Assembly: GCA_016218765.1 (NCBI GenBank)
Contig: JACRCZ010000151.1
Coordinates: 1-64,000, forward strand
DNA: 64,000 bases
From: Deltaproteobacteria bacterium
GTDB taxonomy: Bacteria > Myxococcota_A > Polyangia > DRWM01 > JAAZOP01
Direction: 5' to 3'
Shown: positions 5,507 to 40,590 of the stretch, piece by piece
How the letters are laid out: every line of letters starts with the position of its first letter
How positions within the stretch are numbered: position 1 is the first letter of the stretch
The notes under the pieces: generated by a model
What the model was told of the DNA's origin: nothing
Database searches by the model: none
Seen by the model: the letters and a program-made list of their open reading frames with translations, nothing else
Translations under genes and position numbers: made by a program

Positions 5507-5577
5507 TTGGTCGTCCGGGTCAAGTCGTTGGTTGGTCGTCCGGGCCAAGTCGATGGTTGGGCGTCGCTACCAAGTGG
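5507..5577. repeat. 25-bp tandem repeat (2 full units plus a degenerate third), core ttggtcgtccgggYcaagtcg
   Basis: ttggtcgtccgggtcaagtcgttgg / ttggtcgtccgggccaagtcgatgg / ttgggcgtcgctaccaagtgg. Confidence 0.85.
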
Positions 5578-6158
5578 AGCAGCTCGCCGGCCGCGCGGTA
5601 GAACGGGACGGCAGCCCCGGCCAGGCATCCGGCGAGCACCGGTGCCCAGGCGCCGAGGTGGTCCGCGAGGAACTTCCCGGCCGCGTCGTGGCACACCGAC
5701 GCCTCGTCGTCCGCGCCCCGACCCGCCGCGTAGGCTTCCTTGAAGGCGAGCCACGCCAGGAAACCGAGCTCCGCGGCGACGTGATCCGGAGACTCCGCCT
5801 GCTCCCGCGACGGGTCGTAAAGGAAGGCGCGGTAGAAACCGGCGATGTCGGCCAGCACCTGCCCCTTGCCGCCGGCCGCGGGCAGGACGTCGGTCTCACA
5901 GGAGCGGCACGTCCCGCCCGCGCCGAGGGTCCGGTGGTAGGTCGGCTCGAGATCCGGCGCGGCGAGCGACACGACCCGTCTGGTCCGCTCCCGGAACGCG
6001 TCGGGTACCAGGTCCGAGAGGGCGTTCAGCTCCGCGGCCAGCCCCGGCGCCGGACGCTGGAAGGCCATCGACAGGAACCGGTAGAGTGAAGCCCGAGCCA
6101 ACAGCGGCGCCACGTCCCCCCCCATCCCCGGCAGCCCATTCCCTCCGCACTCGGCCAT
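5520..6158 (-). CDS. TorD/DmsD/NarJ-like molybdoenzyme maturation chaperone
   Basis: LLARASLYRFLSMAFQRPAPG...PTYHRTLGAGGTCRSCETDVLP...DIAGFYRAFLYDPSREQAESPDHVAAELGFLAWLAFKEAYA; adjacent to molybdoenzyme genes. Confidence 0.82.
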   Translation of the reverse strand: MAECGGNGLPGMGGDVAPLLARASLYRFLSMAFQRPAPGLAAELNALSDLVPDAFRERTRRVVSLAAPDLEPTYHRTLGAGGTCRSCETDVLPAAGGKGQVLADIAGFYRAFLYDPSREQAESPDHVAAELGFLAWLAFKEAYAAGRGADDEASVCHDAAGKFLADHLGAWAPVLAGCLAGAAVPFYRAAGELLHLVATPNHRLGPDDQPTT

Positions 6159-6170
6159 CCGTACGCTCCT

Positions 6171-6227
6171 TTCGCCCTTCCCGCCCTTCCCGCCCTTGCC
6201 GCACTCCCCGCCCTCCCCGCACTCCCC
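6171..6227. repeat. C-rich short tandem repeat between gamma-subunit and TorD-like genes
   Basis: ttcgcccttcccgcccttcccgcccttgccgcactccccgccctccccgcactcccc. Confidence 0.8.
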
Positions 6228-7300
6228 TACGGCGGCAGCACGAGCGGTACCCAGTTGGTGCGGAGCTTGCGGGCGCCGACGTTGCGCGCCGAGCCGTCCC
6301 AGACGGCGAACGCGGCATAGGTCCGGCGGCCGCGCGCAGGGGCCTCCTCGGGCGCGGCGGCGAGCGGGATCGCAATCGTCACGATCCACCGCTCGCCACG
6401 CCGCACGCCGTGCCCCTCGGACGCCGGTTGCGGCAGCGCGGTCAGCGTGCCGAATCCCCGTGCGACGGCGTCCTGCACGGCGAAGCCCGGCGGCGGCGGC
6501 GGCGGTCCGCCGTGTCCCGGCGGCGGGCCCGGCAGCGGCGCCATTACGGTGACGGGGTTTCCCGCCGCCCGCGCCGGCGCGTACCGCACTTCCATCGCCT
6601 CGCGCACCGCCGGATCCGCCGCGGCGGCGAACGGATAGTGGTCGATGGCCGCGTTGGGATGGCGGCCCGCCTGCTCCGCGCCGACGTCGGCCGGGCGGTC
6701 CTGCCACGCGGCCTTCCAGAGGCTGATCCGCACCGGCTTGTCCGGCTCGCCCATCTGCGCGCTCGGCACGTCGCCGCCGGCCGCCACCGGAAGCTGCACC
6801 GCCACCGCGTCGCTGAACCGGCCCAGGCCGACCTCGCGGTCCTCCGTCCCGTCCGTCCACTCCAGCCGGAACACGACGCGGCCGCCGTCGATCAACGCCC
6901 GGACCCCGATCGTCGGCGTGCCGGCGACCGCCTGCTTCGGCTCCACGACGTCCTGCGCCAGGAGCGGCACTGCCATCTCCGGCGCCGCGTCCCACGCGGC
7001 GTCGAGGCCGTCCAGCGGCGCGCGATCGGGGACGGCACCCGCCTGGACCTCGGTGACCGGCGGCGGCGGGGGAGGAGGCGCCTTCTTTGCACAGGAAACG
7101 GCGGCGGACAGGGCGAAAGCGGCAAGGACCCGCGAGAAGATAGTCTTGCGAATTCTGGCCGCCGAGGCGCCCCGCCGGCAAGGCGCGAGGAGCGAGCATA
7201 CGCGAACGTATGTGAGCGACGAGCAACGCCGCCGGTGGGGATGGATCGGCGGCCAGAAACGCAAAGGTATCTTCGAGCGGGTCCCAAGGACGGTGCGCAT
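6227..7300 (-). CDS. Lipoprotein with ethylbenzene-dehydrogenase-related heme-b domain (gamma subunit of a type II DMSO reductase family enzyme); true start uncertain
   Basis: KTIFSRVLAAFALSAAVSC lipobox; RISLWKAAWQDRPADVGAEQAGRHPNAAIDHYPF...; ERWIVTIAIPLAAAPEEA...RTYAAFAVWDGSARNVGARK, typical of the EbdC/DdhC/SerC-like family. The N-terminal ~45 codons run through a palindromic repeat. Confidence 0.78.
   Translation of the reverse strand: MRTVLGTRSKIPLRFWPPIHPHRRRCSSLTYVRVCSLLAPCRRGASAARIRKTIFSRVLAAFALSAAVSCAKKAPPPPPPPVTEVQAGAVPDRAPLDGLDAAWDAAPEMAVPLLAQDVVEPKQAVAGTPTIGVRALIDGGRVVFRLEWTDGTEDREVGLGRFSDAVAVQLPVAAGGDVPSAQMGEPDKPVRISLWKAAWQDRPADVGAEQAGRHPNAAIDHYPFAAAADPAVREAMEVRYAPARAAGNPVTVMAPLPGPPPGHGGPPPPPPGFAVQDAVARGFGTLTALPQPASEGHGVRRGERWIVTIAIPLAAAPEEAPARGRRTYAAFAVWDGSARNVGARKLRTNWVPLVLPP
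7126..7284. repeat. ~160-bp long palindromic element with 40-nt imperfect inverted arms and central atacgcgaacgtat hairpin
   Basis: Left arm 7126-7165 ggacccgcgagaagatagtcttgcgaattctggccgccga; right arm 7246-7284 tcggcggccagaaacgcaaaggtatcttcgagcgggtcc; central perfect hairpin 7198-7211. Confidence 0.85.
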
Positions 7301-7382
7301 CGTTCCTCCTCCCGTCAGGTTTCGACCACGTCGTCGGCGGGCCGACGACGCGGCTCGGCGTGACGGCACCGTTCGGGCGCCG

Positions 7383-8513
<1,131 letters not shown>

Positions 8514-8515
8514 CG

Positions 8516-12000
<3,485 letters not shown>

Positions 12001-12003
<3 letters not shown>

Positions 12004-13707
12004 TGGGGTTCCTCCTGGAGACGGCGGCGGGGGCGGCGGCGGCAGGGCCCGCACGAAGGCGACGAGATCGGCGATGGCGGCCGGATCCAGCGCCGCGAAG
12101 GAGACGGATCCGGCGGCAAACGACGGCATCTGGGTTCCCGCGCGACCCAGCGCGATCGTCGCCGCCAGGAACTCGTCCGTCGCCGCCTCGCGGAACGCGA
12201 CGTTGGCGAGCTGCGGCGCGTGCAGCCCCTCGCCCTGGGCGCCGTGGCAGGAGGCGCAACGCTCCGCGAACAGGGCCTTGCCCGCCTCCCCGTCCCCCGG
12301 CGGCAGCGACCACTTCGCCCGCGCCTCGCGATCCTCCGCGCCGCGCCCGCGAAGCCACGTCACGAGGGCGTCGATCTCCGCCGGCCGCAGGCCGCCGTCC
12401 ATCGCCCCCCAGGCCGGCATCAGGCGCCCGGGACGACCCTGCTCGATCGTCTTCACCAGGAAAGCGTCGGAAGCCGCCGCGAGGAAGCCGGGACGGGCGA
12501 CCCCCGGGAACGCGACCGGCAGCGAGCCGAACTGGCGCCCGCGCCCGTCGGCGCCGTGGCAGCCCGCGCAGAAGACGCCGAACAAGGTCTCGCCGTCCGT
12601 GGCGAAATCGCGCTCGCCCAGCCGCGCGGCGCGCACGCGGTCCGGGGGCCAGAACTTCGCGGGTACGTCCAGCGCCCGCAGCGAGAACATGTACAGGTCG
12701 AGCTGCTCGATCTGAGCGTCGTCGAGGCCGAGGTCCGGCATCTGGCTCCCCGGCACCACCCGGACGGGATCGCGGAAGTGCTGGGCCAGCCAGTTCGCCG
12801 TCGTGCGCTCGCCGCCCACGCCGGTGAAGTCGAGCTGCGCGGCGAGGCGCCGGCCGATGGACGTCAGGTCCGGACCGGCGTCCCCGCCGGCGCCGTCGAT
12901 CTTGTGGCATCCGCGGCAGCCCAGCCGATGCGCGGCAATCTTGGCTTCCGCCAGGGGCGCGCCGCCGAAGCGCGAGCGCAGGTACTCCGTGATCGCGGCG
13001 GCGTCCTCCGCCGGGAGCTCGCCGTAGCCGTCGCGCCAGGGGCCTGCCTCGGCGAGCCGGTGGCGCCGCAGGTGGCGTTCGTGCCAGTCCTCGGGCACGC
13101 CGGTGAAGCCCGCGAGCGTCAGCTCCGGTCCGCCGCCGCGCCCGCCGTGCCCGTCGACGGCGTGGCACGTCGGGCAGTCGTAGCGCGCGAAGAGCGCCGC
13201 TCCGCGCGCCGCCAGCCCCTGCGCGGGAACCCGCAGGTGCGTGTGGCAGCCCCCGCAGCCGGCCGCGGCGTAGCGGCGCGGGACCAGCGGGTCGTCCCAG
13301 AACTCCACGTCCCCGTGCGCCGCCGCGCGCTTGGTCGCGCGGCCCTGGCCGCCGTGGCAGACCGTGCAGCCGAGGTCCGCCGGGTCGTGGTGCACGTCGG
13401 GGTGCGCGGCGAAGAGCTTCTCGCCGGCCAGCGGCGTCGCGGTACCCATCGCCACGTGGCAGGTTGTGCAGCGATCGGTGATCCCCAGCGCGGGCTTCCA
13501 GATCTGCTGGATCGCGAGGTCGAGCGGCGCGGCGCCCGCGCCCTCCGCCAGCTCGTTGTAGCGTTCCTGCACGTCGCGCCATTCGGTGAAGCGGCTCCGC
13601 ACCGGGGCGATGGCGAGCACGGCGACGAAGACCACGGCGAGCGCCGCGAAGATCCGGAGCAGGCGGGTCATGCCGAGGTCGGTCTGGCGCACCTGGATGT
13701 CGCGCAT
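12001..13707 (-). CDS. Membrane-anchored seven-heme c-type cytochrome
   Basis: Seven CXXCH motifs (CTTCH, CTVCH, CGGCH, CPTCH, CRGCH, CAGCH, CASCH) after an N-terminal TM segment [26 protein letters not shown]. Confidence 0.93.
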
Positions 13708-13719
13708 CGCCGCCCCCGC

Positions 13720-14439
13720 CTACCAGATGCCGTCGCGCCACGGCAGTGTGAAGCTCCAGCCGGGGCCGCGGAAGAAGACGCCGATCACCGTGAGCGTGAC
13801 CGCCGTGAGCAGGAACCAGGCGAAGATCCAGAACGGCAGCGAGCGCCGGGCGAGCCAGCCGACGAGGCCCCGGCGACGGCTCCAGACGCCGGGCAGGAGC
13901 ATGGCGGCGCCCACGAACCACAGCGGGCCGAGCAGCGGCCACACCGGATGCTGCCCCGCGTACGCGAGAAGCGAGGAGATCAGGCCGAACACCGCCACCG
14001 TCAGCGCGAGCTTCGACGCCCGCCGCCTCTCCCAGAACTCGGGGCGCTCGAGGTTGATGTCGAAGTACGGCACGATCGCCAGCGCGACGACCACGGCGCC
14101 GGGCAGGATGACGCCCGCCACGATCGGCGGGTAGTAGTGCAACAGCTCCTGCAGCCCCAGGAAGTACCAGGGCGCCTTCATCGGGTTCATCGCCTTCGAC
14201 GGGTCGGCCATCGATTCGAGCGGCGCGTCGAAGAGCAGGGCGCAGACCACCAGCAGGAGCGACAGGGCCAGGAAGGCGATCAGCTCGCGCACCACCAGGT
14301 GCGGAAAGGTCATCACCACCGGCTCGTCCGTCGCGTCCACCGCGGGCCGCTGCTCCCCCTGCACCACGAGCAGCCGCACGGGGACCTCGCGGGCCTGCAC
14401 CCCCTCCTCGGGCCGGAACGTGGGGCTCGGATCGCTCAT
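13720..14439 (-). CDS. Cytochrome b C-terminal half (b6f subunit IV-like)
   Basis: [33 protein letters not shown] and multiple TM segments. Confidence 0.88.
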
Positions 14440-15188
14440 CGCTTCCCTCCGCCGTCACGCGAAAGGTCCAGCGGCGGCAGGTAGATCCCCCCGTCCTTGC
14501 GCACGCGCCAGATGTGGATCGCGACCAGCACGACCAGTACCGCGGGCAGGATCACGCAGTGCAGGACGTAGAAGCGCAGGAGCGCGGGCTCCCCGATCTC
14601 CGTGCCGCCGAGCAGCAGGAACCGCGTGTCCTCGCCGATCCACGGCGTGGCCCCCGCCATGTTGGCGCCCACCGTGACGCCCCAGTACGCGAGCTGGTCC
14701 CACGGCAGGAGGTAGCCGGTGTACGAGAGCAGGATCGTCGTGACGAAGAGCACGACGCCGATGACCCAGTTGAACTCCCGCGGCGGCCGGTACGCCCCGG
14801 CGAAGAACACCCGCACCATGTGCAGGAACACGATCGCCACCATCGCGTGCGCCGACCAGCGGTGCAGGTTGCGCAGGAACACGCCCGAGGACACGACGAA
14901 CTCCAGGTCCTTCATGTCGTCGTACGCCTCCGGCACCGACGGCCGGTAGTACAACATCAGCAGGACGCCCGTGATCGTGAGGATGAGGAAGCACGCCGCC
15001 GCCAGCCCGCCGAGGAAGAACGTGCGCGAGAAGGCGATCGCACGCAGGCGGACCTTCACGGGGTGGACGTGCAGGAAGAGGTTGCTGAAGACCGCCAGCG
15101 CCCGGTTGCGGTTGGAGTCCGGGAACCCGTGGCGGACGATCGAGCGCCAGACCCTGTTGCCCGTGAGGAGCCGTCCCAGCGCGCTCAC
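14436..15188 (-). CDS. Cytochrome b N-terminal half (cytochrome b6-like)
   Basis: [74 protein letters not shown]...[34 protein letters not shown] start overlapping the Rieske stop. Confidence 0.92.
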
Positions 15189-15679
15189 GCCGGCACCTCC
15201 AGGACGAAGTCCTCGCCGACCTCCCGCCGCGTGTCCACCACCAGGAAACCCTTGTCGAGCGTCAGCTCGTAGCGCGGCAGCGGACGCGGGGCGGGGCCGC
15301 CCGTGACGCGACCCTCGCGCGAGTACCGGCTGCCGTGGCAAGGACAGAAGATCCGGTCGCCCGCCGCCTCGAACTGCGTCATGCAGCCCAGGTGCGTGCA
15401 GACCGCGGACATCGCGATGAACCCGCGCGCCGTGCGCATGAGGTACAGCTTGCGCCGCGGCAAGGCCGTCACCGAACCCACCGCGAACTCGCCGGGACGG
15501 CCGAGCTTGAAGCGCCGCTCGTCCTCGTACAGCACGTTCGGCGAGAGGTAGCGGAAACCGACGACGCCTGTCCCCGCCACGGCCGCCGCCAGCGCCCCCG
15601 CGCCGCAGAGCGACAGGAACCGCCGGCGGCTCGATTCCTTCTCCTCCAGCGGCTCGTGCAAGTCGTCCATCAACGGCAT
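15185..15679 (-). CDS. Rieske [2Fe-2S] protein with Tat signal
   Basis: [27 protein letters not shown] and [24 protein letters not shown]. Confidence 0.94.
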
Positions 15680-15698
15680 GCTCGACCTCCCGCCCGTG

Positions 15699-17627
15699 TC
15701 ACAGGACGCGCTCGGCGGCCGCCACGAGCGGCTCCTCGTCCTCCCGGTAGAATGCCTGCATCGTGATCAGTCCCACCGGACACCGGCGCGCGCACAACCC
15801 GCAGCGGATGCACGCGGTCTCGTCCTTGATCAGCGCGGCGCCGGAGGGATGGTCCAGGAGCTCCAGCGGCGCGCCGTCGGGAAGGCGGCGCAGGCCGGCG
15901 CCGTCGGGCCGGCGGGCAATTCGGCGCAACGACACCAGATCGATGCAGTGCTCCGGACACACGTCCACGCAGCCGCCGCACTGGATGCACTCGCTGCCCT
16001 GCATCCGCGAGGAGTCGAAGATCGTGTTCACCCAGCAGTGCAGGCAGCGGCTGCCCTCCGCACGCGCGTCCTCCTCCCCCAGCGGACGCTCGACCTCGAC
16101 CTGCCGCTCGCGGCGCTCCACCGGCACCAGCGGCAGCTTCCGCCGCGCCGTCTTCTCGTAGTCCCCGCGCGCGAAGGGGTGGTCGTAGCCGAAGGTGTCG
16201 AAGACGCGCACGCGGTACGGGATCGCGGCGTCGCGCCGCCCGGTCAGCCGCGTATCGATGGCGCGCGCCGCGCGCCGTCCGTCCGCGACGGCGTCGATCA
16301 CGATCCGCGGGCCGAACGCGACGTCCCCGCCGGCGTACACCCCCGGACGGCTCGTCGCCAGCGTCGCGCGATCGACGCGGATCGTGTTCTGCCGCGTCAC
16401 CTCCAGTCCGTGGTCCGCACCCAGGAACGACAGGTCCGCGGTCTGCCCGATCGCGAGCACGACCGTGTCCGCCGGGATCTCCCGCTCCGTCCCCTCCACG
16501 AACTTCGGCGAGAATTTTCCCGCGTCGTCGAACACCCGCGCCACGTCGATCGTCCGCAGCGCCCGCACCCTCCCCCCCTCGCCGACGATCGCCCGCGGGC
16601 CGCGCCGGAACACGACCCGGATCCCCTCCTCCGTCCCCTCCTCCAGCTCGCGCGGATCGGCGGGCATCTCCTCGCGGGATTCCAGCGCCACCAGCGTCAC
16701 GTCGCGGCGCAGGAGCCGGGCCGCCGCCAGCGCCGCGTCGCGCGCCAGGTTGTGGTGCTCCTCGTCGGGAAACGTCGTGCCGCCGAACCGCCGCGCGCTG
16801 CGGGCGACGTCGAACGCCACGCTGCCGCCGCCCACGACCACCACCCGCTCGCCGACCTCGAGCGGCGTGCCGAGGTTGACGTGGGCCAGGAAGTCCACGG
16901 CGGTCAGCACGCCCGGAAGGTCCCCGCCCGGCAGCGGCAGGATGCGGCCCTTGCGACAGCCCGGCGCCAGGAACACCGCGTCGTGGTCGCGCAACAGCGC
17001 CCCGAATTCGACGTCGCGGCCGATCTCCACGCCCAGCCGGATCTCCACGCCCAGCCAGGCGATGAAGTCCACCTCGCACTGCAACAGCTCGCGCGGCAGC
17101 CGGTACTCCGGGATGCCCAGCCGCATCATCCCCCCGGCCACGGGGGCCCCGTCGAACACGACGACCTTGTGGCCCATCAGCGCCAGATCGTGCGCGCAGG
17201 ACAGGCCCGCCGGTCCCGCGCCGACCACCGCCACCTTGCCGGGCCGCTCGGCCTTCGGCCGCGGCCGCTCCACCACCGCGAGGATCCGGCCGAAATCCCG
17301 CGCCGACTCGACCCCGAACTTCTCCGTCACCACCCGCTTGAGCGCCCGGATCTGGATCGGGTCGTCGATCGCCCCGCGGCGGCACGCCGACTCGCACGGA
17401 TGCGCGCAGATGCGCCCGCAGATCGACGCCATCGGATTCGGCGCGCGCGCCAGCGCGTAGGCCTCCTCCAGCTTCCCCTGCGCAATGAGGCTGACGTAGC
17501 CACCCGCGTTCGTGCCGACCGGACAGGCCGCGCGGCACGGAAAGTTGCTCTCCAGGTACGAGGCGTCCTGGGCGTCCCGGCTGTCCCACCAGCTCGGGAG
17601 CAGATCCTGCGCGGTCATCGCTTCCAT
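15699..17627 (-). CDS. GltD-like FAD/NAD(P) oxidoreductase with N-terminal and C-terminal Fe-S domains
   Basis: PCRAACPVGTNAGGYVSLIAQGKLEEAYALARAPNPMASICGRICAHPCESACRR; KVAVVGAGPAGLSCAHDLALMGHKVVVFD; GGDVAFG; C-terminal CIQCGGCVDVCPEHC and CIRCGLCARRCPVG. Confidence 0.9.
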   Translation of the reverse strand: MEAMTAQDLLPSWWDSRDAQDASYLESNFPCRAACPVGTNAGGYVSLIAQGKLEEAYALARAPNPMASICGRICAHPCESACRRGAIDDPIQIRALKRVVTEKFGVESARDFGRILAVVERPRPKAERPGKVAVVGAGPAGLSCAHDLALMGHKVVVFDGAPVAGGMMRLGIPEYRLPRELLQCEVDFIAWLGVEIRLGVEIGRDVEFGALLRDHDAVFLAPGCRKGRILPLPGGDLPGVLTAVDFLAHVNLGTPLEVGERVVVVGGGSVAFDVARSARRFGGTTFPDEEHHNLARDAALAAARLLRRDVTLVALESREEMPADPRELEEGTEEGIRVVFRRGPRAIVGEGGRVRALRTIDVARVFDDAGKFSPKFVEGTEREIPADTVVLAIGQTADLSFLGADHGLEVTRQNTIRVDRATLATSRPGVYAGGDVAFGPRIVIDAVADGRRAARAIDTRLTGRRDAAIPYRVRVFDTFGYDHPFARGDYEKTARRKLPLVPVERRERQVEVERPLGEEDARAEGSRCLHCWVNTIFDSSRMQGSECIQCGGCVDVCPEHCIDLVSLRRIARRPDGAGLRRLPDGAPLELLDHPSGAALIKDETACIRCGLCARRCPVGLITMQAFYREDEEPLVAAAERVL

Positions 17628-17691
17628 CGCCGTACGCCCCACCCCGGCCGGTCCGACGCACACGAAGCGCTCGCCGGGGCGCCCGGGACCT

Positions 17692-17707
17692 TGCGCGTCC
17701 CGTGCCG
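17692..17707 (-). promoter_or_regulatory. Candidate sigma54 -24/-12 promoter for the respiratory operon
   Basis: Minus strand CGGCACGGGACGCGCA; GG-N10-GC spacing; ~65 nt upstream of the GltD-like ORF start, with a sigma54 activator gene adjacent. -12 element not canonical. Confidence 0.4.
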
Positions 17708-17864: not shown

Positions 17865-18833
17865 TTACGGGCAGGTGGGTCCGGTCTCGGTCAGCCCGTA
17901 GAGGCGGAGCTTGACGTAGAGCTGCTTGCGCGAGATGCCGAGCAGCCGGGCGGCCATGGTCTTGTTGCCGGCGGTGTGCGCCATGGCCGAAGCGATCGCG
18001 CCGCGCTCGGCCTCGCGCAGCGACACCGGCCCGAAGGGCACCGCAGCCGCCGGGTCGGCCGCAGGCTCGCCGAGCAGCGGGAGATCCTCCACGCCGACCC
18101 GCCGCCCGGAAGCCGTCGCGCACGCCTGGAACACCACGTTCTCCAGCTCGCGCACGTTGCCGGGCCAGTTGTGGAGCGCGAGGCGATCGAGCGCCGCGAC
18201 CGTGAGCTCGGGCGCGCTCGCCGCACCGCAGGAGATATGCCAGCGGGCGGCGAAGTGCCCGGCAAGGAGGGGAATGTCCTCGAGCCGGTCGCGCAGCGGC
18301 GGGACCCGGATGACCCAGCGCTGGAGGCGGTAGTACAGATCGCGCCGCAGCTTGCCCCGGGCCAGTGCGGCCGCCAGATCCTCGTTGGTGCTGGCGACGA
18401 TCCGCACCTGCACCGGAACCTCCCGGTTCTCCCCGACCGCGCGCACCGCACGCTCCTGGATGAGCCGCAGCAGCTTCGCCTGCGCCTCCACGTCCAGCTC
18501 CGTGATCTCGTCGAAGAACAGCGTCCCGCCCGACGCGGCCCGAGCCAGCCCGATCCGCCGCTCCGTCGCCCCGCTGAACGCGCCCCGCGCGTGGCCGAAC
18601 AGCTCGCTCTCCATGAGGGCCCTGGGCAGCGCGGCGCAGTTCACCGCCACGAAACGGTCCGCCGGATCGCCGCTCTGCCGGTGGATCGCCTGCGCCACCA
18701 GCTCCTTGCCCGTGCCGCTCTCGCCGACGATCAGCGCCGTCTCGCGCCCGCCCGCAGCCAACACCACGCGCTCGTACAACGCCCGCATGCACGACGCGGC
18801 CCCCAGCAGTCCACAGAACCGATCACCAATCAT
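17865..18833 (-). CDS. Stand-alone sigma54-dependent transcriptional activator (AAA+ plus Fis-type HTH, no receiver domain)
   Basis: ALIVGESGTGKELVAQAIH (Walker A), ESELFGHARGAFSGATERR, GGTLFFDEITELDVEAQAKLLRLIQE (Walker B), LALHNWPGNVRELENV, HTAGNKTMAARLLGISRKQLYVKLRLYGL. Confidence 0.92.
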   Translation of the reverse strand: MIGDRFCGLLGAASCMRALYERVVLAAGGRETALIVGESGTGKELVAQAIHRQSGDPADRFVAVNCAALPRALMESELFGHARGAFSGATERRIGLARAASGGTLFFDEITELDVEAQAKLLRLIQERAVRAVGENREVPVQVRIVASTNEDLAAALARGKLRRDLYYRLQRWVIRVPPLRDRLEDIPLLAGHFAARWHISCGAASAPELTVAALDRLALHNWPGNVRELENVVFQACATASGRRVGVEDLPLLGEPAADPAAAVPFGPVSLREAERGAIASAMAHTAGNKTMAARLLGISRKQLYVKLRLYGLTETGPTCP

Positions 18834-18897
18834 CACGCCCGCATTCCCCCCGTGCCCTGCCCGATCTTGTAGCGCAATTCGGTGCGACGGGACAAGG

Positions 18898-18965
18898 GAG
18901 TGCGGGGGGAGTGCGGGGGGAGTGCGGGGGGAGTGCGGGAAGTGCGGGAAGTGCGGGAAGCGCGG
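18898..18965. repeat. G-rich short tandem repeat (gagtgcgggg / aagtgcggg units)
   Basis: gggagtgcggggggagtgcggggggagtgcggggggagtgcgggaagtgcgggaagtgcgggaagcgcgg read directly. Confidence 0.85.
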
Positions 18966-19026
18966 ATCGCGCCGCCACCAGCTACCAGCCACCAGCCGCT
19001 GGCCGACCCGCCGGTGTCGGGAGCTG

Positions 19027-20484
19027 TCAGGGGAGCTGGCTGCCCGCGGTCACGTACGCAAAGTGCGTCGCGTCGCCGTGGCCGAGGGCCTCGGCGCCCG
19101 CGGCGGGGAGGAACACGGCGTAGCCCGCGCCGAGCTGCAGCCAGCGCCAAGGCGTCCACAGCAGCTCGACGTCCAGCTCGTACCCGAGGATGCTCTCCGT
19201 GTTGGCGGGGTCCACCCCGAGCTGCACTCCGCCGGCGTTGGCCCAGCGGCTTCCCGGCTCCGCCAGTCCCAGCAGGTGGGCCGCGAGCGACGCCTTGACG
19301 GGCGCCTCGACCGGCGCGAAGGAGAGCCGCGCCCACCCATCGAAGAGGTTGCGCCAGCCGAAGAGATCGGCGATGCCGTAGAACGGGTGGTTCGTGGGGA
19401 AGAAGTTGTCGAACTCGGTCCAGGAGTCGCCCGGCGCGCCGCCCGTCGCGTACGCGCCGCCCAGCGTGAAGCCGGGGCGTCCCGCGACCTGGAACATGTA
19501 GCCCAGCTCCGCGGCGGCGGCCGCCGCCAGGTGCCGCGCGCCCGCCGCGCGCCCGCCCTGGATCGCCGCTTCCACGTCGTACGAGAGCCCCGTCACGGGC
19601 GTCCCGTGCAGGCGCAGGCCCGCCGACGCGATGTCCCGGTCGCGCCCGACGGACGGCGCCGGATCGGTCGCGCCGGCCGGCGGCTCCGTCGGGCCGTCAT
19701 GTCGGTACAGGCCGGTCACCTCCAGCCCCAGCGGCTCGCCGAGCGTCCACGAGAATTCCAGCCCCGCGAGGTAGTCGCCTTCCGAGCGGACCGAGCGCGT
19801 CTCCGTCACCGGCGGGTCACCCGTCGTCACCGTGTACGAGATCGTGCGCACGACGCGCGTCATCGCGCCGAAGGCGTCCAGGCCGAAGTCGCCCCACTGC
19901 CAGTGGGTGCGCAGGGCGTCGAACGAGCGGCCCGCGGTCGACCAGTTGAAGTTGCCGATCATCCTCTGCGCCCCGTAGGTGATCTCCTGGCGCCCGAGGC
20001 GGAACCAGCCGCAACAGGCGCGCACTTCGAGGAAGCCCTGGTGCAGCCCGGTCGTGGCGCCGTCGTCGGTCCCGACGGCGAACTGTCCCAGGTTCCGTGC
20101 GTCCTGCACCTGGACGAGCACGCGGACGGGGTCCAGCGTCAGCTCGGCGCCGAGGCGCACGCGCGAGCCGACGAAGTAGTCGTCATCGCCTGTTCCCGTC
20201 GCGGTGTAGGGTTCCAGGCGCGTCTCGAAGCGCTCGCGCACCTCCACGCTCGGCCGGAAGAGGATTGCTCCGATGCGGAACGTGCCCGGCGGCAGGTCCT
20301 CCTCTTGCGGCGGCACCGCCGCCTCGGCGACCGCCGGCGTCGTGTCCCCGGCGCCGACGCTCGCCGGCGGTGCTTCCGCCGCCGCGGACGGCTCCGCGTT
20401 TGCGGGTTCTGCCCCGACGAGCATCCCCGCCACGCCCAGCACCGCGACCCGCAATCCGATCCTCCACGTCGTCCCCACCTTCAT
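19027..20484 (-). CDS. Outer-membrane porin, alginate-export (AlgE-like) family
   Basis: Signal peptide MKVGTTWRIGLRVAVLGVAGMLVGAEPANA; RFETRLEPYTATGTGDDDYFVGSRVRLGAELTLDPVRVLVQVQDARNLGQ...RLGRQEITYGAQRMIGNFNWSTAGRSFDALR. Confidence 0.82.
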   Translation of the reverse strand: MKVGTTWRIGLRVAVLGVAGMLVGAEPANAEPSAAAEAPPASVGAGDTTPAVAEAAVPPQEEDLPPGTFRIGAILFRPSVEVRERFETRLEPYTATGTGDDDYFVGSRVRLGAELTLDPVRVLVQVQDARNLGQFAVGTDDGATTGLHQGFLEVRACCGWFRLGRQEITYGAQRMIGNFNWSTAGRSFDALRTHWQWGDFGLDAFGAMTRVVRTISYTVTTGDPPVTETRSVRSEGDYLAGLEFSWTLGEPLGLEVTGLYRHDGPTEPPAGATDPAPSVGRDRDIASAGLRLHGTPVTGLSYDVEAAIQGGRAAGARHLAAAAAAELGYMFQVAGRPGFTLGGAYATGGAPGDSWTEFDNFFPTNHPFYGIADLFGWRNLFDGWARLSFAPVEAPVKASLAAHLLGLAEPGSRWANAGGVQLGVDPANTESILGYELDVELLWTPWRWLQLGAGYAVFLPAAGAEALGHGDATHFAYVTAGSQLP

Positions 20485-20523
20485 CGCTGCCCTCCTGCCG
20501 CACCGCGGCCGGAGCGCTCGTTG

Positions 20524-20539
20524 TCCAAGTTCCGTGCCA
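20524..20539 (-). promoter_or_regulatory. Candidate sigma54 promoter for the porin gene
   Basis: Minus strand TGGCACGGAACTTGGA: full TGGCACG-N4-TTG match, -12 GG instead of GC; about 40 nt upstream of the porin ATG, which has a GGAGG ribosome site. Confidence 0.5.
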
Positions 20540-29812: not shown

Positions 29813-32491
29813 CTACGCCCGCTCCACCCGCGCCGCGCAGACCTTGTACTCGGGAATCTTCGCGATCGGATCGTAGGCCGGGTTGGTGAGGACGTTGGCC
29901 GCGGCCTCCACGAAGTGGAAGGGCATGAAGAGCGTGCCGCGGTCCACGCGGTCGTTGAGACGCACGCGCGCCCGGACCGCACCGCGACGCGTCACGACCC
30001 GCACGAACCCGCCCTTGGCCACCCGCAGCGCCGTCGCGTCCTTCCCGTTCAGCTCGACGAACCCCTCGGGCTCCAGCCCGTGCAACGCCTTCGAGCGTCG
30101 CGTCATCGTGCCCGTGTGGTAGTGCTCGAGCATCCGGCCCGTCGTGAGCACGAACGGGAATTCCTTGTCCGGCTCCTCGGCCGCCGGCTTGTACTCGATC
30201 GGCGCGAACTGGCCGAGGCCCCGTGTGAACTTCTGCGCGTGCAGGATCGGCGTCCCGGGATGGTCCTCCGCCGGACACGGCCAGCAGACGGCCGCCGAGC
30301 CCTCCAGCCGCGACCACGCGATGCCCGCCATCGAGGGCGTCAGGCCGCGCATCTCGTCCCACACCGCCTGCGTGGACTCGAAGCGCATCGGCCGGCCGAG
30401 CCGCTCGGACACGTCGCACAGGATCCGCCAGTCGCGGCGCGGTCCCCCGGCGCCTTGCCAGTCGGCGCCGGGCGGCGCGACGAACGGCTGGGTGAGCTGC
30501 ACGCGACGCTCCGTGTTCGTGTACGTCCCGTCGCGCTCGGGGAACGCCAGCGCCGGCAGCACGACGTGCGCGAGCTTCGCCGTCTCCGTGAGGAAGATGT
30601 CCTGCACGACCAGGAACTCGAGCTTGCGCAGCGCCGCCTCGACGTGCGTCACGTCGGGGTCCGAGAGCATCGGGTTCTCGCCCATGATGTAGAGGGCCTT
30701 GATCCGCCCCTCCAGCGCCGCGGGGAAGACCTCCGACACGGTGAGCCCCGGCTTGGGCGGGAGCTTCGCGCCCCAGGCCGCCTCGAACTTCGCCCGGATC
30801 TTCTCGTCCGCGACCTGCTGGTAGCCGGGAAGGACGTTGGGCAGCGCGCCCATGTCGCACGAGCCCTGGACGTTGTTCTGGCCGCGCAACGGGTTGACGC
30901 CCGTGCCCGGCCGGCCGATGTGGCCGGTCAGCATGGCAAGGTTGGCCAGCGAGCGCACGTTGTCCACGCCCGTCGTGTGCTGCGTGATGCCCATCGAGTA
31001 CACGATCGAGGCCGCGTTCGCTCCGCCGTACAGGCGTGCCGCCGCCACGATGTCGTCGGCCGGAACGCCCGTGATCTTCGCCGCCCGGTCCGGCGGGTAG
31101 CGCCTCGCGACCTCCGCGAAGGCCTCGAAGCCCTCCGTCCGCTCGGCGATGAACGCCGGCTTGTGCAGCTTCTCCTCCAGGATCACGTTCGCCAGGCCGT
31201 TGATCCACGCGACGTCCGTGCCCGGCCGCTGCCGGCACCACAGCGTCGCCTGCCGCGTGAGCGGGATCTTCCGCGGATCGAACACGATGAGCTTCGTGCC
31301 GCGCGCGACCGCCTCGCGGATCTTGAACCCGAACACCGGATGGTTCTCCGTCGTGTTCGTGCCGGTGATGAGGATCGTGTCGGCGAGCAGCAGGTCGTCG
31401 GCCGGGTTGGTCATCGCGCCGGAGCCGAACGAGAGCGCGAGGCCGGCGACCGTCGAGGCGTGGCAGAGGCGCGCGCAGTGGTCGACGTTGTTGGTGCCCA
31501 TCGTCGCGCGCACGAACTGCTGGAAGACGTAGTTGTCCTCGTTGGGCACTTTCGCCGACGACAGCCCGGCGAAGACCTCGCCGCGCCGCTTGTCGAGGCC
31601 CGCGGCGACGGCGCCGAGCGCCTCGTCCCACGTCGCCTCGCGCAGCCGGTCGTTCTCGCGCACCAGGGGCCGCGTCAGCCGGTCGTTGTGGCCGACGAAC
31701 TCGAACGACCCGTAGCGTCCCTTGACGCACAGCCGGCCGCGGTTGGCGGGGCCCGAGCGATCCCCGCGTGCGCCGACGATGCGGTTGCCCTTGACGCCGT
31801 ACTGGATGCGGCAGCCGACGCCGCAGTAGGGGCAGATGGACGAACCCTCCCGCGCCGGCACCTCGGACTGCCGCGGGGAGAGCGCCCCGGTCGGGCAGCG
31901 GACCACGCACTCGCCGCACGACTCGCAGATCGACGCGCGCAGGCCGCCGCCCCCGAACGGCTCGATCCGCGTCTTGAAGCCGCGGCCGTAGAGGTCGATC
32001 GCGCCGCAGCCGTTGATCTCCGCGCACGCCCGCACGCACTTCCCGCAGAAGACGCACTTGGCGTAGTCGATGGCGAAGCACGGGTTGGAGTCGTCCGGCG
32101 CCGTCTCGCGGTGCAGCGGCCGCAGCAGCCGCTCGCGGATGCCCAGGTACTCCGCCGCCTCGTGCAGTCCGCACTCGCTGCTCTTGGCGCAGACGACGCA
32201 GTCGCCGGGATGGTCCGAGAGCAGGAGCTGCAGGGTCATGGTGCGCACGGCACGCAGCTCGTCGTCGTCCGTGACGATCTTCATGCCGTCGGCCACCCGG
32301 GTCGTGCACGAGGTCGGCAGGCCGCGGAGGCCCTCGATCTTCACGATGCACAGCCGGCACGCGCCGTAGGGCTCGAGGTCCTCGTCCGCGCACAGCGTCG
32401 GGATGTAGACGCCCGCCTCGCGGCAGGCCTCCAGCACCGTCCCCGCCTTCTCCACCGTCACGGGGCGGCCATCGATCGTGAGCTTCTTCAT
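29813..32491 (-). CDS. fdhA: Formate dehydrogenase-type molybdopterin catalytic subunit with N-terminal NuoG-like Fe-S domain (Cys, not Sec)
   Basis: PYGACRLCIVKIEGL, DYAKCVFCGKCVRACAEINGCGAIDL, CESCGECVVRCPTGAL, ICPYCGVGCRIQYGV, DHCARLCHASTVAGLALSFGSGAMTN, TGHIGRPGTGVNPLRGQNNVQGSCDMGALP. Confidence 0.92.
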   Translation of the reverse strand: MKKLTIDGRPVTVEKAGTVLEACREAGVYIPTLCADEDLEPYGACRLCIVKIEGLRGLPTSCTTRVADGMKIVTDDDELRAVRTMTLQLLLSDHPGDCVVCAKSSECGLHEAAEYLGIRERLLRPLHRETAPDDSNPCFAIDYAKCVFCGKCVRACAEINGCGAIDLYGRGFKTRIEPFGGGGLRASICESCGECVVRCPTGALSPRQSEVPAREGSSICPYCGVGCRIQYGVKGNRIVGARGDRSGPANRGRLCVKGRYGSFEFVGHNDRLTRPLVRENDRLREATWDEALGAVAAGLDKRRGEVFAGLSSAKVPNEDNYVFQQFVRATMGTNNVDHCARLCHASTVAGLALSFGSGAMTNPADDLLLADTILITGTNTTENHPVFGFKIREAVARGTKLIVFDPRKIPLTRQATLWCRQRPGTDVAWINGLANVILEEKLHKPAFIAERTEGFEAFAEVARRYPPDRAAKITGVPADDIVAAARLYGGANAASIVYSMGITQHTTGVDNVRSLANLAMLTGHIGRPGTGVNPLRGQNNVQGSCDMGALPNVLPGYQQVADEKIRAKFEAAWGAKLPPKPGLTVSEVFPAALEGRIKALYIMGENPMLSDPDVTHVEAALRKLEFLVVQDIFLTETAKLAHVVLPALAFPERDGTYTNTERRVQLTQPFVAPPGADWQGAGGPRRDWRILCDVSERLGRPMRFESTQAVWDEMRGLTPSMAGIAWSRLEGSAAVCWPCPAEDHPGTPILHAQKFTRGLGQFAPIEYKPAAEEPDKEFPFVLTTGRMLEHYHTGTMTRRSKALHGLEPEGFVELNGKDATALRVAKGGFVRVVTRRGAVRARVRLNDRVDRGTLFMPFHFVEAAANVLTNPAYDPIAKIPEYKVCAARVERA

Positions 32492-35400
32492 GGCGCCCTC
32501 CGTTCCTCACACGTGCAGCCCGTGGTCTTGGTCGTGCCCTTGGAGTCGCTGCACTCGCTCAGGGCGCCTGCGGCGGCCGGTCTCCCCCCCGGCTCCGGGC
32601 ACTCCTTCCCGTAGTCGCAGCGCAGACAGCGCCGCGCCTCCCGTTTCGCCGCAGCGGCGCCGAGCGTGCGCTCGACCTCGAAGAATCCCTGCGCGCGTTT
32701 CCCGGGATCGGCCTTCGGCGCCGGGCCGCGCTTGTCCTTGGCCGGAGGCGCTTCGGGATCGAACTTCGTGTCGAGAGCTCGCTTCGCACGCCACGGGAAA
32801 TTCACGACCGAGGCCGGGTTGAGGTAGCGCTCCATCGCTTCCGCCGCGCGGCGCCCCTGGCCGATGGCCTCGACGACGGTGGCCGGGCCGAGCACCGCGT
32901 CGCCGCCGGCGAAGATACCGTCCAGATCCGTCGACAGCGACCAGCGGTCCGCGACCACCGTGCCGTTCTTCCGCGCCGCAGGCCCCTCGGCGGGAAGCGT
33001 CGGGCGCTGGCCGACGGCGCGGAACAGGTGCCGGCAAGGCAGCTCGAAGAACTCACCCTCCGCCGGGACCGGCCGCCTCCGGCCGCTGGAGTCGAAGGGC
33101 CCGAGCTTCATGCGCTGCAGGCGCAGCGCGCGCGCGTGGCGCTTGCCGTCCTGTCCGTCGGTCAACACCTCCATCGGCGCCGCGAGGAACTCGAAGCGCA
33201 CGCCCTCTTCCTCGGCCTCGGCGATCTCCTCCGGCTGCGCCGGCATCTCGGCCTTCGTGCGCCGGTAGGCCACGGTGACGCTCGAAGCCCCGAGCCGCAG
33301 GGCGGTCCGGGCCGCGTCGATGGCCGTGTTGCCGCCGCCGATGACGACGGCGTCCCCGGACAGGCGGGCGATCTTCTCTTCCGCCGCCCGTCGCAGGAAA
33401 TCGATGCCCGAGCGTACGCCGGCGGAATCCTCGCTCGGAATGCGCAGGGCGAGATCGTCCCAGGCGCCCAGCGACAGGAACACGGCGTCGTGCTTCTTGC
33501 GGAGGCCGGCGACCGTGTGCGTTCCGCCGAGCTTCCATCCCGTGCGGATCGTGACGCCCAGCCGCTCGATGCGCCGGACGTCGCGCGCCAGCTCCTTGCG
33601 GACGAGGCGGTAGGAGGGGATGCCCCAGCGCATCATGCCGCCGGGCTCCTTGGTGGCTTCGTAGACGGTGACCTCGTGTCCCAGGCGGCGCAGGAAGAAG
33701 GCGGCGGTGAGGCCGGCCGGGCCGGCGCCGACGATCCCGACGCTCTTGCGCTCGGCCGCCGGACGGTCGAGGGGGACGAGCCTCGGCTCGAGGCCCTGGT
33801 CGGCCATGAAGCGCTTGACGGCGCGGATCGACACCGGCTGGCCGTCCAGCGTCGTGCGGCGACACCGGGTCTCGCAGAACGCAGGGCAGACGCGCCCGCA
33901 AACGGACGGGAACGGGTTGCGGTCGAGGTGTACCGCCAGCGCCTCGGCCGTCCGTCCCTCCGCGACGAGCGAGACGTAGGCCGGGACGTCGACCTCGGCG
34001 GGGCAGCGGTTGACGCAGGGCGCCAGCGTGAGGTCGGCGCAGACGCCGGCCGAGCAGCGCCGATCGCGGACGTGCTCGAGATACTCGTCCTCGAAGTAGT
34101 GCAGCGTGGTGAGCACCGGGTTCGGGGCCGTCTGCCCCAGCCCGCATAGCGAGCCCTTGCGCACGGCGTTGCCGAGGTCCCGGAGCAGGGCGATGTCCTG
34201 TTCGGAGCCGCGACCGGCGCAAAGCTCCTCCAGCGTCAGGCGGAGCTGGCGCGTGCCCAGTCGGCAGGGCACGCACTTGCCGCACGACTCGCTCTCGGTG
34301 AACTGCAGGAAGTACCGGGCGACGTCGACCGCGCAGGTTTCCTCGTCCATCACCACCAGGCCGCCGGAGCCCATGATCGAGCCGGCCTCGGCGAGGCGCT
34401 CGTAGTCCACCGGCAGGTCCATCCGTTCGGCCGGGATGCAGCCGCCGGAGGGGCCGCCGGTCTGCACGGCCTTGAGCTTGCGCCCGTGGAGGACGCCGCC
34501 GCCGATGTCGTACACGATTTCGCGCAACGTCATGCCCATCGGCACTTCGATCAGGCCGTTGTTGCGCACCTTGCCGACGAGGCTGAAGACCTTGGTCCCC
34601 TTGCTGCGCTCCGTGCCGATGGAGGCGTACCAATCGCCGCCGCGAACAAGGATCTCGGGCACGTTGACCCAGGTTTCCACGTTGTTGATGTTGGTCGGCC
34701 GGCCGAACAGGCCGCTCTGCGCGGGGAAAGGCGGTCGGGAGCGGGGCATGCCGCGCTTGCCCTCGATCGAGGCCATCAGCGCCGTTTCCTCGCCGCAGAC
34801 GAACGCACCCGCGCCCTGCTTGACGTGCAGATCGAAGGAGAAGTCGGTGCCGAGGATGCCGGAGCCCAGGAGCCCGGCTTCGCGCGCCGCCTCGACGGCG
34901 AGGGTCATGTGGCGCACGGCCAGAGGGTACTCGGCGCGGACGTAGATGTACCCCTCCATGGGGCCGCGCCCGCGACCGATGGCCAGGGCGCCGAGGATCA
35001 TGCCCTCCAGCACCCCGTGCGGATTGGCTTCCATGATCGAGCGGTCCATGAATGCGCCGGGATCGCCTTCGTCCCCGTTGCAGATCACGTACCGCACGCC
35101 GTGGCCCGGCGCCTCGCGGCAGAATTTCCACTTCGGCCCGGTCGGGAACCCGGCGCCGCCGCGGCCGCGGAGCCCGGAGCGCGTGATCTCGTCCAGGATC
35201 CGCTCGGGCTCCATCGCGATCGCCTTGGCCAGTCCGGCGTAGCCGCCCGCCGCGAGGTAGTCCTCGATCGACGTCGGATCGATCCGCCCGTTGTGCCGGA
35301 GGGCGATGCGCTGCTGGCGGGCGTAGAACGGGATCTCCGCGTGGTGCGCGATCCTCCGGCCGCTTTCCGGGTCGTCGTACTGCAGCCGCTGGGCCGGCGG

Positions 35401-35727
35401 CTCGCCGGCCAGGACCGCCCGGACGATCTCCTCGGCATCACGCCGGGCGTCCTGCTTGCCCACGCCCTGGCAGAAGAGGCCCTCCGGTTCGGTGATGACG
35501 ACCGGGCCGCGCTGGCAGAAGCCGTGGCATCCCGAAACCATGAGGTCGATGTCCGCCCCCGCCCTCCGCCGGCGGATGGCCTGGCGCATGGCGGCGATCA
35601 CGGCCTCGGCGCCGCTGGCGCGGCATCCGGTGCCGCCGCAGACGACGATGCGATGCGGCGCGGTTCGCCGCGCGCGCAGCCGACTCTGCACCTCGAGAAG
35701 CTGGGCCGGTGTCTGCAGATGGTCCAT
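32488..35727 (-). CDS. Fusion protein: NuoF/HydB-like FMN-NADH domain plus GltD/NfnB-like FAD oxidoreductase domain
   Basis: CGGTGCRASGAEAV...GCHGFCQRGP; SGLRGRGGAGFPTGPKWKFCRE; ESESCGKCVPCRLGTRQLRLTLEELCAGRG; then PCVNRCPAEVDVPAYVSLVAEGR...; SVGIVGAGPAGLTAAFFLRRLGHEVTVYEAT; in one 1079-aa frame. Confidence 0.92.
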   Translation of the reverse strand: MDHLQTPAQLLEVQSRLRARRTAPHRIVVCGGTGCRASGAEAVIAAMRQAIRRRRAGADIDLMVSGCHGFCQRGPVVITEPEGLFCQGVGKQDARRDAEEIVRAVLAGEPPAQRLQYDDPESGRRIAHHAEIPFYARQQRIALRHNGRIDPTSIEDYLAAGGYAGLAKAIAMEPERILDEITRSGLRGRGGAGFPTGPKWKFCREAPGHGVRYVICNGDEGDPGAFMDRSIMEANPHGVLEGMILGALAIGRGRGPMEGYIYVRAEYPLAVRHMTLAVEAAREAGLLGSGILGTDFSFDLHVKQGAGAFVCGEETALMASIEGKRGMPRSRPPFPAQSGLFGRPTNINNVETWVNVPEILVRGGDWYASIGTERSKGTKVFSLVGKVRNNGLIEVPMGMTLREIVYDIGGGVLHGRKLKAVQTGGPSGGCIPAERMDLPVDYERLAEAGSIMGSGGLVVMDEETCAVDVARYFLQFTESESCGKCVPCRLGTRQLRLTLEELCAGRGSEQDIALLRDLGNAVRKGSLCGLGQTAPNPVLTTLHYFEDEYLEHVRDRRCSAGVCADLTLAPCVNRCPAEVDVPAYVSLVAEGRTAEALAVHLDRNPFPSVCGRVCPAFCETRCRRTTLDGQPVSIRAVKRFMADQGLEPRLVPLDRPAAERKSVGIVGAGPAGLTAAFFLRRLGHEVTVYEATKEPGGMMRWGIPSYRLVRKELARDVRRIERLGVTIRTGWKLGGTHTVAGLRKKHDAVFLSLGAWDDLALRIPSEDSAGVRSGIDFLRRAAEEKIARLSGDAVVIGGGNTAIDAARTALRLGASSVTVAYRRTKAEMPAQPEEIAEAEEEGVRFEFLAAPMEVLTDGQDGKRHARALRLQRMKLGPFDSSGRRRPVPAEGEFFELPCRHLFRAVGQRPTLPAEGPAARKNGTVVADRWSLSTDLDGIFAGGDAVLGPATVVEAIGQGRRAAEAMERYLNPASVVNFPWRAKRALDTKFDPEAPPAKDKRGPAPKADPGKRAQGFFEVERTLGAAAAKREARRCLRCDYGKECPEPGGRPAAAGALSECSDSKGTTKTTGCTCEERRAP

Positions 35728-35736
35728 GGCGACTTC

Positions 35737-36297
35737 CTACTTCCGGCCGCGCGCCGCAGCGCCGCCGCGCGCGGGTTTGCGCGCTCCTCGCGCACCGCCT
35801 TCCCTGCTCGCGGAAGCGATCAGGGACTTCGCCTTCTGCGCCGAGAGCTGCCCGTGCACGCGACCGTCGATGGAGATGACGGGCGCCAGGGCGCACGATC
35901 CGAAGCAGGCCACCGTCTCCAGCGTGAACATGCCGTCCGCCGAGGTCTCCTGCGGCCGAACCCGCAGCGTGCCCTGCAAGTCGTCGAGGAGCTTGCCGCT
36001 GCCGCGCACGTGGCAGGCGGTGCCGCGGCAGACCGTCACATTGTGCCGGCCCGGCGCCTTGAAGCGGAACTGCGCGTAGAACGTCGCGATGCCCTGGACG
36101 ATCGCCGAAGGCAGGCGCAGCGCGCGCGCGATGCCGTCCATCGCCTCGCGCGGAACGTAGCCGAATTCCTCCTGCGCCGCCTGCAGCAGCGGGATCACCG
36201 CCTCGCGGCCCCGCCCCGCGCCCCCGCCGGACCGGAACACGGACGTGTCGAGCCACGCTCGTACGCGCTCCACAGTCGCCTCCCGACTCGTTGGCAT
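35737..36297 (-). CDS. NuoE/HoxE-like thioredoxin-fold [2Fe-2S] subunit
   Basis: LLQAAQEEFGYVPREAMDGIARALRLPSAIVQGIATFYAQFRFKAPGRHNVTVCRGTACHVRGSGKLLDDL...TLETVACFGSCALAPVISIDG. Confidence 0.92.
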   Translation of the reverse strand: MPTSREATVERVRAWLDTSVFRSGGGAGRGREAVIPLLQAAQEEFGYVPREAMDGIARALRLPSAIVQGIATFYAQFRFKAPGRHNVTVCRGTACHVRGSGKLLDDLQGTLRVRPQETSADGMFTLETVACFGSCALAPVISIDGRVHGQLSAQKAKSLIASASREGGARGARKPARGGAAARGRK

Positions 36298-40323: not shown

Positions 40324-40590
40324 TGTACCGGAGCGCGGGCCGGATGTCGCGGCAGCATCGCCGGGGGAAGCGAAACCGCCGATGGACACCGATGGATACC
40401 GATGGGGCAGGGCAGGTCGCCGGTGGGCCCGTGCCGCGCGACGCAGATCCCCGCCTCCCCACCTCTCCGGTCGGCCCGCCGTGCGCGAAGTCGAAGGGCC
40501 TCTCCACATCTCCCTGTCCGGATTCGCACTCGACGAACAGCCCGACGACCCCGTGGCGCAGGCCTCGTCGCTCCGACGCACCGGCCTCGC

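Follow-up and report, generated by a model that had tools for sequence, protein, structure and literature searches.

The window analysed here (a 64,000-nt stretch of the Deltaproteobacteria bacterium contig JACRCZ010000151.1) contains a nine-gene operon that combines an NXR/NAR-type molybdoenzyme with an anammox-type Rieske/cytochrome b-NAD(P) oxidoreductase (R/b) complex. Both halves are of known kinds, and what is new is the joined, transferable unit. The operon may encode one respiratory machine for nitrate-driven quinol bifurcation, a reading that we consider an even bet. All nine genes lie consecutively and tightly packed on the minus strand, and reading frames and domain searches returned the same order and families as an earlier note on this DNA had given them:

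15699..17663, minus strand, GltD/PRK12771-like NAD(P)-FAD-FeS oxidoreductase (Pyr_redox_2, Fer4_20 and C-terminal ferredoxin; NF009410, 451 bits; without signal peptide or TM helix)
15185..15679, minus strand, Rieske [2Fe-2S] protein, Tat-type anchored (best PDB match 9rk4, E 1.7e-26; CTHLGC and CPCHGSRY)
14436..15188, minus strand, b6-like four-helix cytochrome b (Cytochrome_B, 148 bits; ExtP model, 272 bits, cut-off 290; alignment)
13720..14439, minus strand, subunit IV (SUIV)-like C-terminal cytochrome b half (Cytochrom_B_C; 4–5 TM segments by hydropathy)
12001..13707, minus strand, seven-haem membrane-anchored cytochrome c (seven CxxCH; N-terminal TM)
8516..12004, minus strand, alpha, NXR/NAR-type molybdoenzyme with Tat-type N-terminus (881 bits to 7b04_B; C67, N70, D71, C75, C115 and D275 kept)
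7383..8513, minus strand, beta, four FeS clusters (371 bits to 7b04_A vs 221 bits for the perchlorate reductase-type chain 4ydd_B)
6227..7300, minus strand, gamma, haem b lipoprotein, start uncertain (62.6 bits to 7b04_C; M155 and K305 kept)
5520..6158, minus strand, TorD/NarJ-type chaperone (TIGR03482, 56.6 bits, cut-off 152.3; Pfam Nitrate_red_del)

Several neighboring genes overlap by 2–4 nt, and the overlaps at 15188/15185 and 14439/14436 stand as first described, whereas some gene starts had to be corrected. Alpha starts with the ATG at 12004 (8516–12003 is out of frame) and overlaps the cytochrome c stop at 12001 by 4 nt, and the longest frame of the GltD-like gene begins at 17663 (17627 is its likely ATG, and 17707 is no start). 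The start of beta is at 8513, 2 nt past the alpha stop, and that of gamma is uncertain, with a lipobox Cys near 7093. Based on sequence and hydropathy, alpha, beta, gamma and the cytochrome are predicted to be periplasmic and the flavoprotein cytoplasmic. Domain matches, and the lack of a signal peptide or TM helix in the flavoprotein, agree with the bc/b6f-like quinol complex with a cytoplasmic GltD-type subunit that had been proposed.

The alpha subunit matched Kuenenia NxrA (7b04) over its full length (881 bits, 39.6% identity), far better than PcrA (171 bits), EbdA (128 bits) or NarG (117 bits). The FS0 ligands (C67, D71, C75, C115), the Mo ligand (D275) and the substrate residue (N70; numbering follows PMC8387239) are identical in the window and in nearly all of 95 aligned rows. 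An SRRDFL motif followed by a hydrophobic stretch, judged by eye and hydropathy only, gives alpha a Tat-type N-terminus and, with the 7b04 match, supports the earlier view of an NXR-like type II enzyme with a Tat signal and a putative periplasmic active site. As far as its sequence tells, alpha is an NXR-type enzyme of the periplasmic NXR/NAR lineage, with putative nitrite/nitrate interconversion. Because it belongs specifically to this lineage, hydrocarbon, selenate or perchlorate chemistry is unlikely. The beta subunit has the 16 cysteines of a four-cluster protein, and gamma, of the EB_dh (ethylbenzene dehydrogenase, EBDH) type by domain search, carries Met155 and Lys305, the ligands of haem b, which are the same in all 81 rows aligned.

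Several enzyme classes were ruled out for alpha: EBDH, perchlorate, selenate and NarG types by the NXR-best scores and kept active-site residues; the ethylbenzene dehydrogenase/hydrocarbon hydroxylase class by a score of 128 bits only and the kept substrate Asn; and the cytoplasmic NarGHI/Nitrobacter-type NXR by an FS0 of Cys and Asp, not 3Cys/1His, and a gamma of EBDH type, not NarI. The 39.6% identity is below the ~60% reported between NOB homologues (Nitrospira/Nitrospina/anammox branch) and Kuenenia NxrA, and at the level of the Nitrotoga and Hydrogenobaculum enzymes (PMC8387239). The sister lineage of periplasmic NXRs is described as mostly uncharacterised, with nitrite oxidisers as well as nitrate reducers, and includes the Ca. 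Nitrotoga NXR (PMC6050957). The NXR-like clade found here should not count as proof of nitrifiers in metagenomes.

For the second half, the best solved relative of the Rieske protein was 9rk4 (96.6 bits, E 1.7e-26; the next, a b6f Rieske, scored 72.9 bits), presumably one of two structures of Kuenenia Rieske proteins in the anammox R/b study. The window cluster holds a Rieske protein, a b6-like cytochrome b, an SUIV-like subunit, an NAD(P) oxidoreductase and a multihaem cytochrome c, and can be assigned by these parts to the anammox-type R/b complexes of the Kustd1480–85/Kuste4569–74 type. Both Kuenenia clusters encode a Rieske protein, a b6-like cytochrome b, an SUIV-like subunit, a multihaem cytochrome c and a putative cytoplasmic NAD(P) oxidoreductase, and their complexes have been proposed to bifurcate quinol electrons (PMC12954380). 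The GltD-Rieske-b6-SUIV-multihaem module and the cysteine pattern of its flavoprotein are common to the window and to Brocadiales-like loci (L142–L146), a label that rests on gene orders matched to the two Kuenenia clusters and on the c_N cysteine; together with the closeness of the Rieske protein to 9rk4, this upholds the anammox precedent invoked in the earlier note. A search of Planctomycetota genomes found many R/b modules, including two (L142, L143) with gene orders matching both Kuenenia clusters, and putative R/b-type complexes are widespread outside Brocadiales-like loci.

The cysteine for haem c_N, expected where TM1 of cytochrome b begins, is absent: Phe stands there in the window (RTFFLGG), and Phe, Tyr or Gly in the NXR-linked rows shown, whereas the cysteine is present in L142–L146, L167, L168 and L174. 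Haem c_N has been described as lying ~250 mV away from the path to NAD(P)+ and as an energetic obstacle (PMC12954380), so without its cysteine the path to NAD(P)+ would be simpler; the loss of this named obstacle was counted for bifurcation. A His before TM1 (xLH) of cytochrome b occurs in the window and nearly all rows and is a candidate ligand of the proposed extra b haem (Kuste4571 His43 and Kustd1481 His62 in the anammox complexes). The Rieske motif CPCHGSRY keeps the Ser and Tyr donors, which are associated with high potential (PMC12954380). Hydropathy gives 4–5 TM helices for the SUIV-like subunit, five being the anammox-type number.

The two halves may be connected by the cytochrome c, in which seven CxxCH motifs (spacing 0-34-71-98-184-300-404) form a four-haem core and three single-haem domains; its haem number, the split into two cytochrome b genes and the four-cluster beta had all been read correctly from the letters. 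The tetrahaem start is generally common to R/b cytochromes. In 17 of the 21 linked loci there are exactly seven haems, with the three extra haem domains at the same spacing, whereas unlinked R/b cytochromes vary (4, 8, 9 or 10 haems where the whole protein could be read). Across 16 linked loci, pairwise distances of the cytochrome correlate with those of alpha (r 0.86) and beta (r 0.88), compared to r 0.69–0.75 with GltD, cytochrome b, SUIV and Rieske, which correlate with each other at r 0.93–0.97. One locus (L085) carries the alpha and cytochrome of the main linked group on a core that groups with L035/L130. NXR-linked cytochromes as a single clade were rejected (p-AU 1e-5), as L035 and the unlinked L126–L128 intrude. 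The cytochrome thus tends to follow NXR more closely than the R/b core, with one clean swap (L085); since the linked cytochromes do not form a single clade, the claim covers only the distance correlation and this swap, and is not one of strict co-descent.

The arrangement is no isolated case: it is a conserved unit across phyla. An independent MAG of the same genus (L033; alpha 95%) has an identical operon, and the nine-gene layout is repeated in about 20 loci of other genera, spread over several phyla. The order recurs in L033, L035, L036, L038, L041, L085, L094, L076 (partial), L105, L106, L137–L139, L149–L152, L161–L163 and L166, several being truncated at a contig end; the records carry the labels Deltaproteobacteria, Acidobacteria/Vicinamibacterales, Acidimicrobiia and Lentisphaerae, plus Planctomycetota genomes (a phylum sample). 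In the alpha tree (86 rows), a single starred clade of 25 members holds all 21 linked alphas, the remaining four being two contig-edge cases and two loci without an R/b module (L107, L037), and exclusive monophyly of the linked alphas was not rejected (p 0.37). One lineage of all NXR-linked R/b cores was rejected (p-AU 8e-55), and the cores are polyphyletic. Shared descent of window-type cores and their alphas gave an AU p of 0.09 (alpha and core trees are quick LG+G4 searches with SH-aLRT support only). These trees suggest that at least two, probably three, R/b lineages were joined to one NXR lineage. Other R/b modules have no NXR (L126–L128, L140, L154, L155), and one (L130) lies beside another molybdoenzyme.

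Outside the nine genes, only sigma-54 activators (five loci) and Rrf2-like regulators (three loci) are conserved, and no conserved nitrogen genes were found flanking the linked operons. Upstream of the operon in the window are:

17865..18992, minus strand, sigma-54-dependent activator, AAA+ plus Fis-type HTH (Pfam Sigma54_activat, 201 bits)
19027..20484, minus strand, alginate-export-type outer-membrane porin (PF13372, 127 bits)
20524..20539, minus strand, sigma-54 -24/-12-like site about 40 nt upstream of the porin ATG (TGGCACGGAACTTGGA, one mismatch; count not above chance)

Relatives of the activator lie upstream in L033, L105, L138 and L139. The porin has a counterpart in the same place in L033 (87%) and a 31% relative inside the L138 operon, and is possibly part of the same transcription unit as the operon. 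Its upstream site is near-identical in L033 (TGGCATGGAACTTGG), and no sigma-54 promoter was found directly upstream of the GltD gene.

In the proposed machine, the NXR/NAR-type enzyme would be wired through its dedicated seven-haem cytochrome to the R/b complex, where quinol electrons would be split. The first would pass from the Rieske protein through the seven-haem cytochrome, the gamma haem and the FeS chain to Mo, where nitrate would be reduced to nitrite; the second would travel via the b haems and the flavoprotein's FeS clusters to FAD and reduce NAD(P)+. With menaquinone, the electron to nitrate (+420 mV) yields ~490 mV and the electron to NAD(P)+ costs ~250 mV, so the split would pay, whereas with ubiquinone it would not without help. 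Because NXR enzymes are reversible, with the Kuenenia enzyme oxidising nitrite and working in both directions (PMC8387239), the direction is not readable from sequence. Simple reverse electron flow, as suggested earlier, is a weaker reading than quinol bifurcation.

In weighing bifurcation, we counted in its favor the NXR and R/b identities, the conserved linkage, the cytochrome distances, the L085 swap and the Rieske Ser and Tyr. Several points were counted against it: the split pays only if the quinone is of low potential, and no MqnA or MenD match reached the cut-off in the 80%-complete genome or in three congeners; a related NXR-type enzyme (L055) is found in Thioalkalivibrio thiocyanoxidans ARh2, a strain of a species that reportedly cannot respire NOx (PMC5328954); and R/b modules occur without NXR in L126–L128. 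More tentatively, the operon could be a self-contained nitrate-driven, quinol-bifurcating NAD(P)H generator, transferable across phyla and with interchangeable R/b cores, in which the nitrate branch pays for NAD(P)+ reduction.

The main rival, which we regard as rather unlikely, is nitrite oxidation: NXR would pass electrons through the seven-haem cytochrome to a terminal oxidase, and the R/b complex would feed the same cytochrome from quinol and make NAD(P)H by splitting, so that NXR and R/b would be parallel donors, not donor and acceptor. Nitrite oxidation by Kuenenia NXR, the placing of the Ca. Nitrotoga NXR in the mostly uncharacterised sister lineage and the ARh2 species without NOx respiration agree with it, as does the window genome (5.9 Mb), which has one haem-copper oxidase and only weak matches to NirK below the cut-off; gene absences carry little weight, however, in a genome that is 80% complete. 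A common soluble cytochrome would also suffice for parallel donors, which leaves the one-operon linkage and the cytochrome distances that follow NXR unexplained. We find it improbable that the R/b half serves nitrate respiration as an ordinary quinol:cytochrome c reductase, without bifurcation and with the GltD-like protein as an NAD(P)H-to-quinone input or inactive passenger. Haloarchaeal nar operons do pair a NarGH-type enzyme with a quinol-oxidising Rieske/cytochrome b (to our knowledge without an NAD(P) flavoprotein or seven-haem cytochrome), and the missing c_N cysteine could allow cycling through the b haems and a bc1-like Q_N site. However, all linked cores examined retain the GltD-like gene with its FeS motifs, and GltD distances agree with cytochrome b distances at r 0.96. 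It is very doubtful that alpha acts on an organic substrate or a different oxyanion (hydrocarbon, chlorate, selenate, arsenite), even though the type II family is broad and gamma is of ethylbenzene dehydrogenase type: alpha is by far closest to NXR and keeps Asn70, which is Ile in ethylbenzene dehydrogenase (PMC8387239). That the halves are fortuitous neighbors without a common function is scarcely credible: both modules are also found apart, but the recurrence of the nine-gene order between unrelated flanks in about 20 other loci of several phyla, and the joining of at least two R/b lineages to one NXR clade, contradict chance adjacency.

The literature discusses R/b complexes that include an NAD(P) oxidoreductase for anammox bacteria, and proteins of these organisms need purification from native biomass. 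The operon names a concrete high-potential partner for the R/b complex, supplies variants that lack haem c_N and makes the proposed formation of NAD(P)H by bifurcation accessible to work in non-anammox organisms. If nitrate-driven bifurcation is true, nitrate reduction would be an exergonic partner of a kind not yet proposed for Kustd1480–1485. The literature searched (Kuenenia complexes, NXR-like genes of Planctomycetota, Nitrospinota; most subscription journals lay outside its scope), in the parts available, contained no description of the composite operon and no characterised clade with the same layout around alpha.

Compared to known systems, the window operon resembles Kuenenia stuttgartiensis NXR-ABC (7b04) and the Nitrospira/Nitrospina/Nitrotoga/Hydrogenobacter lineage in full-length homology of alpha, beta and gamma, the 3Cys/1Asp FS0, the Mo-Asp, the substrate Asn, the Met/Lys haem b and a Tat-type alpha. 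It differs in its alpha (39.6% only, outside the anammox/NOB branch as represented by Kuenenia), its lipoprotein gamma and an operon with a complete R/b complex. The split cytochrome b is like ExtP/ExtQ of selenite/tellurite reduction operons, the best NCBIfam models, but the window proteins are below the curated cut-offs and have other operon partners. With Kustd1480–1485 and Kuste4569–4574, the window operon shares the same five part types in one cluster and a conserved His before TM1, the candidate haem ligand; unlike them, it is without the c_N cysteine, has GltD first and a seven-haem cytochrome of another architecture, and the operon partner, HAO-like or none in the Kuenenia clusters, is NXR.

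The R/b-NAD(P) module (Rieske protein, split cytochrome b, GltD-like oxidoreductase and multihaem cytochrome c) has other partners: at two loci (L130 and L141), it is followed by a different molybdoenzyme, the alpha subunit of which matches the window alpha at 23-26%. In a Nitrospinae MAG (L097:1-13584), NXR ABCD precedes a Rieske protein and split cytochrome b with no adjoining GltD, and the same genome encodes an R/b-NAD(P) module at a separate site (L133).

A MAG labelled Thaumarchaeota contains an NXR-type ABCD operon (L087:2639-8674; alpha vs. Kuenenia NxrA, 49.5%), a candidate archaeal NXR. An NXR-type alpha, over which PLSDB has no annotated gene, was also found on a Natronococcus occultus plasmid (L104:9001-12389), followed by beta and TorD; gamma was not detected at this locus.

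In the window, an alginate-export-type porin gene lies directly upstream of the sigma-54-dependent activator gene.

19027-20539, minus: alginate-export-type porin and sigma-54-like site
29813-36297, minus: soluble formate dehydrogenase-like set
29813-32491, minus: its molybdopterin subunit
32488-35727, minus: its NuoF-like subunit with fused GltD-like flavin domain
35737-36297, minus: its probable NuoE-like member
38404-40581: acetyl-CoA hydrolase/transferase gene fused to GNAT acetyltransferase domain
51734-53638: second such fusion

The sigma-54-like site is kept in the same-genus MAG (L033). A relative of this porin sits within an NXR-linked operon (L138), suggesting that the substrate may have an outer-membrane route via the porin. 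The formate dehydrogenase-like set recalls electron-bifurcating formate dehydrogenases.
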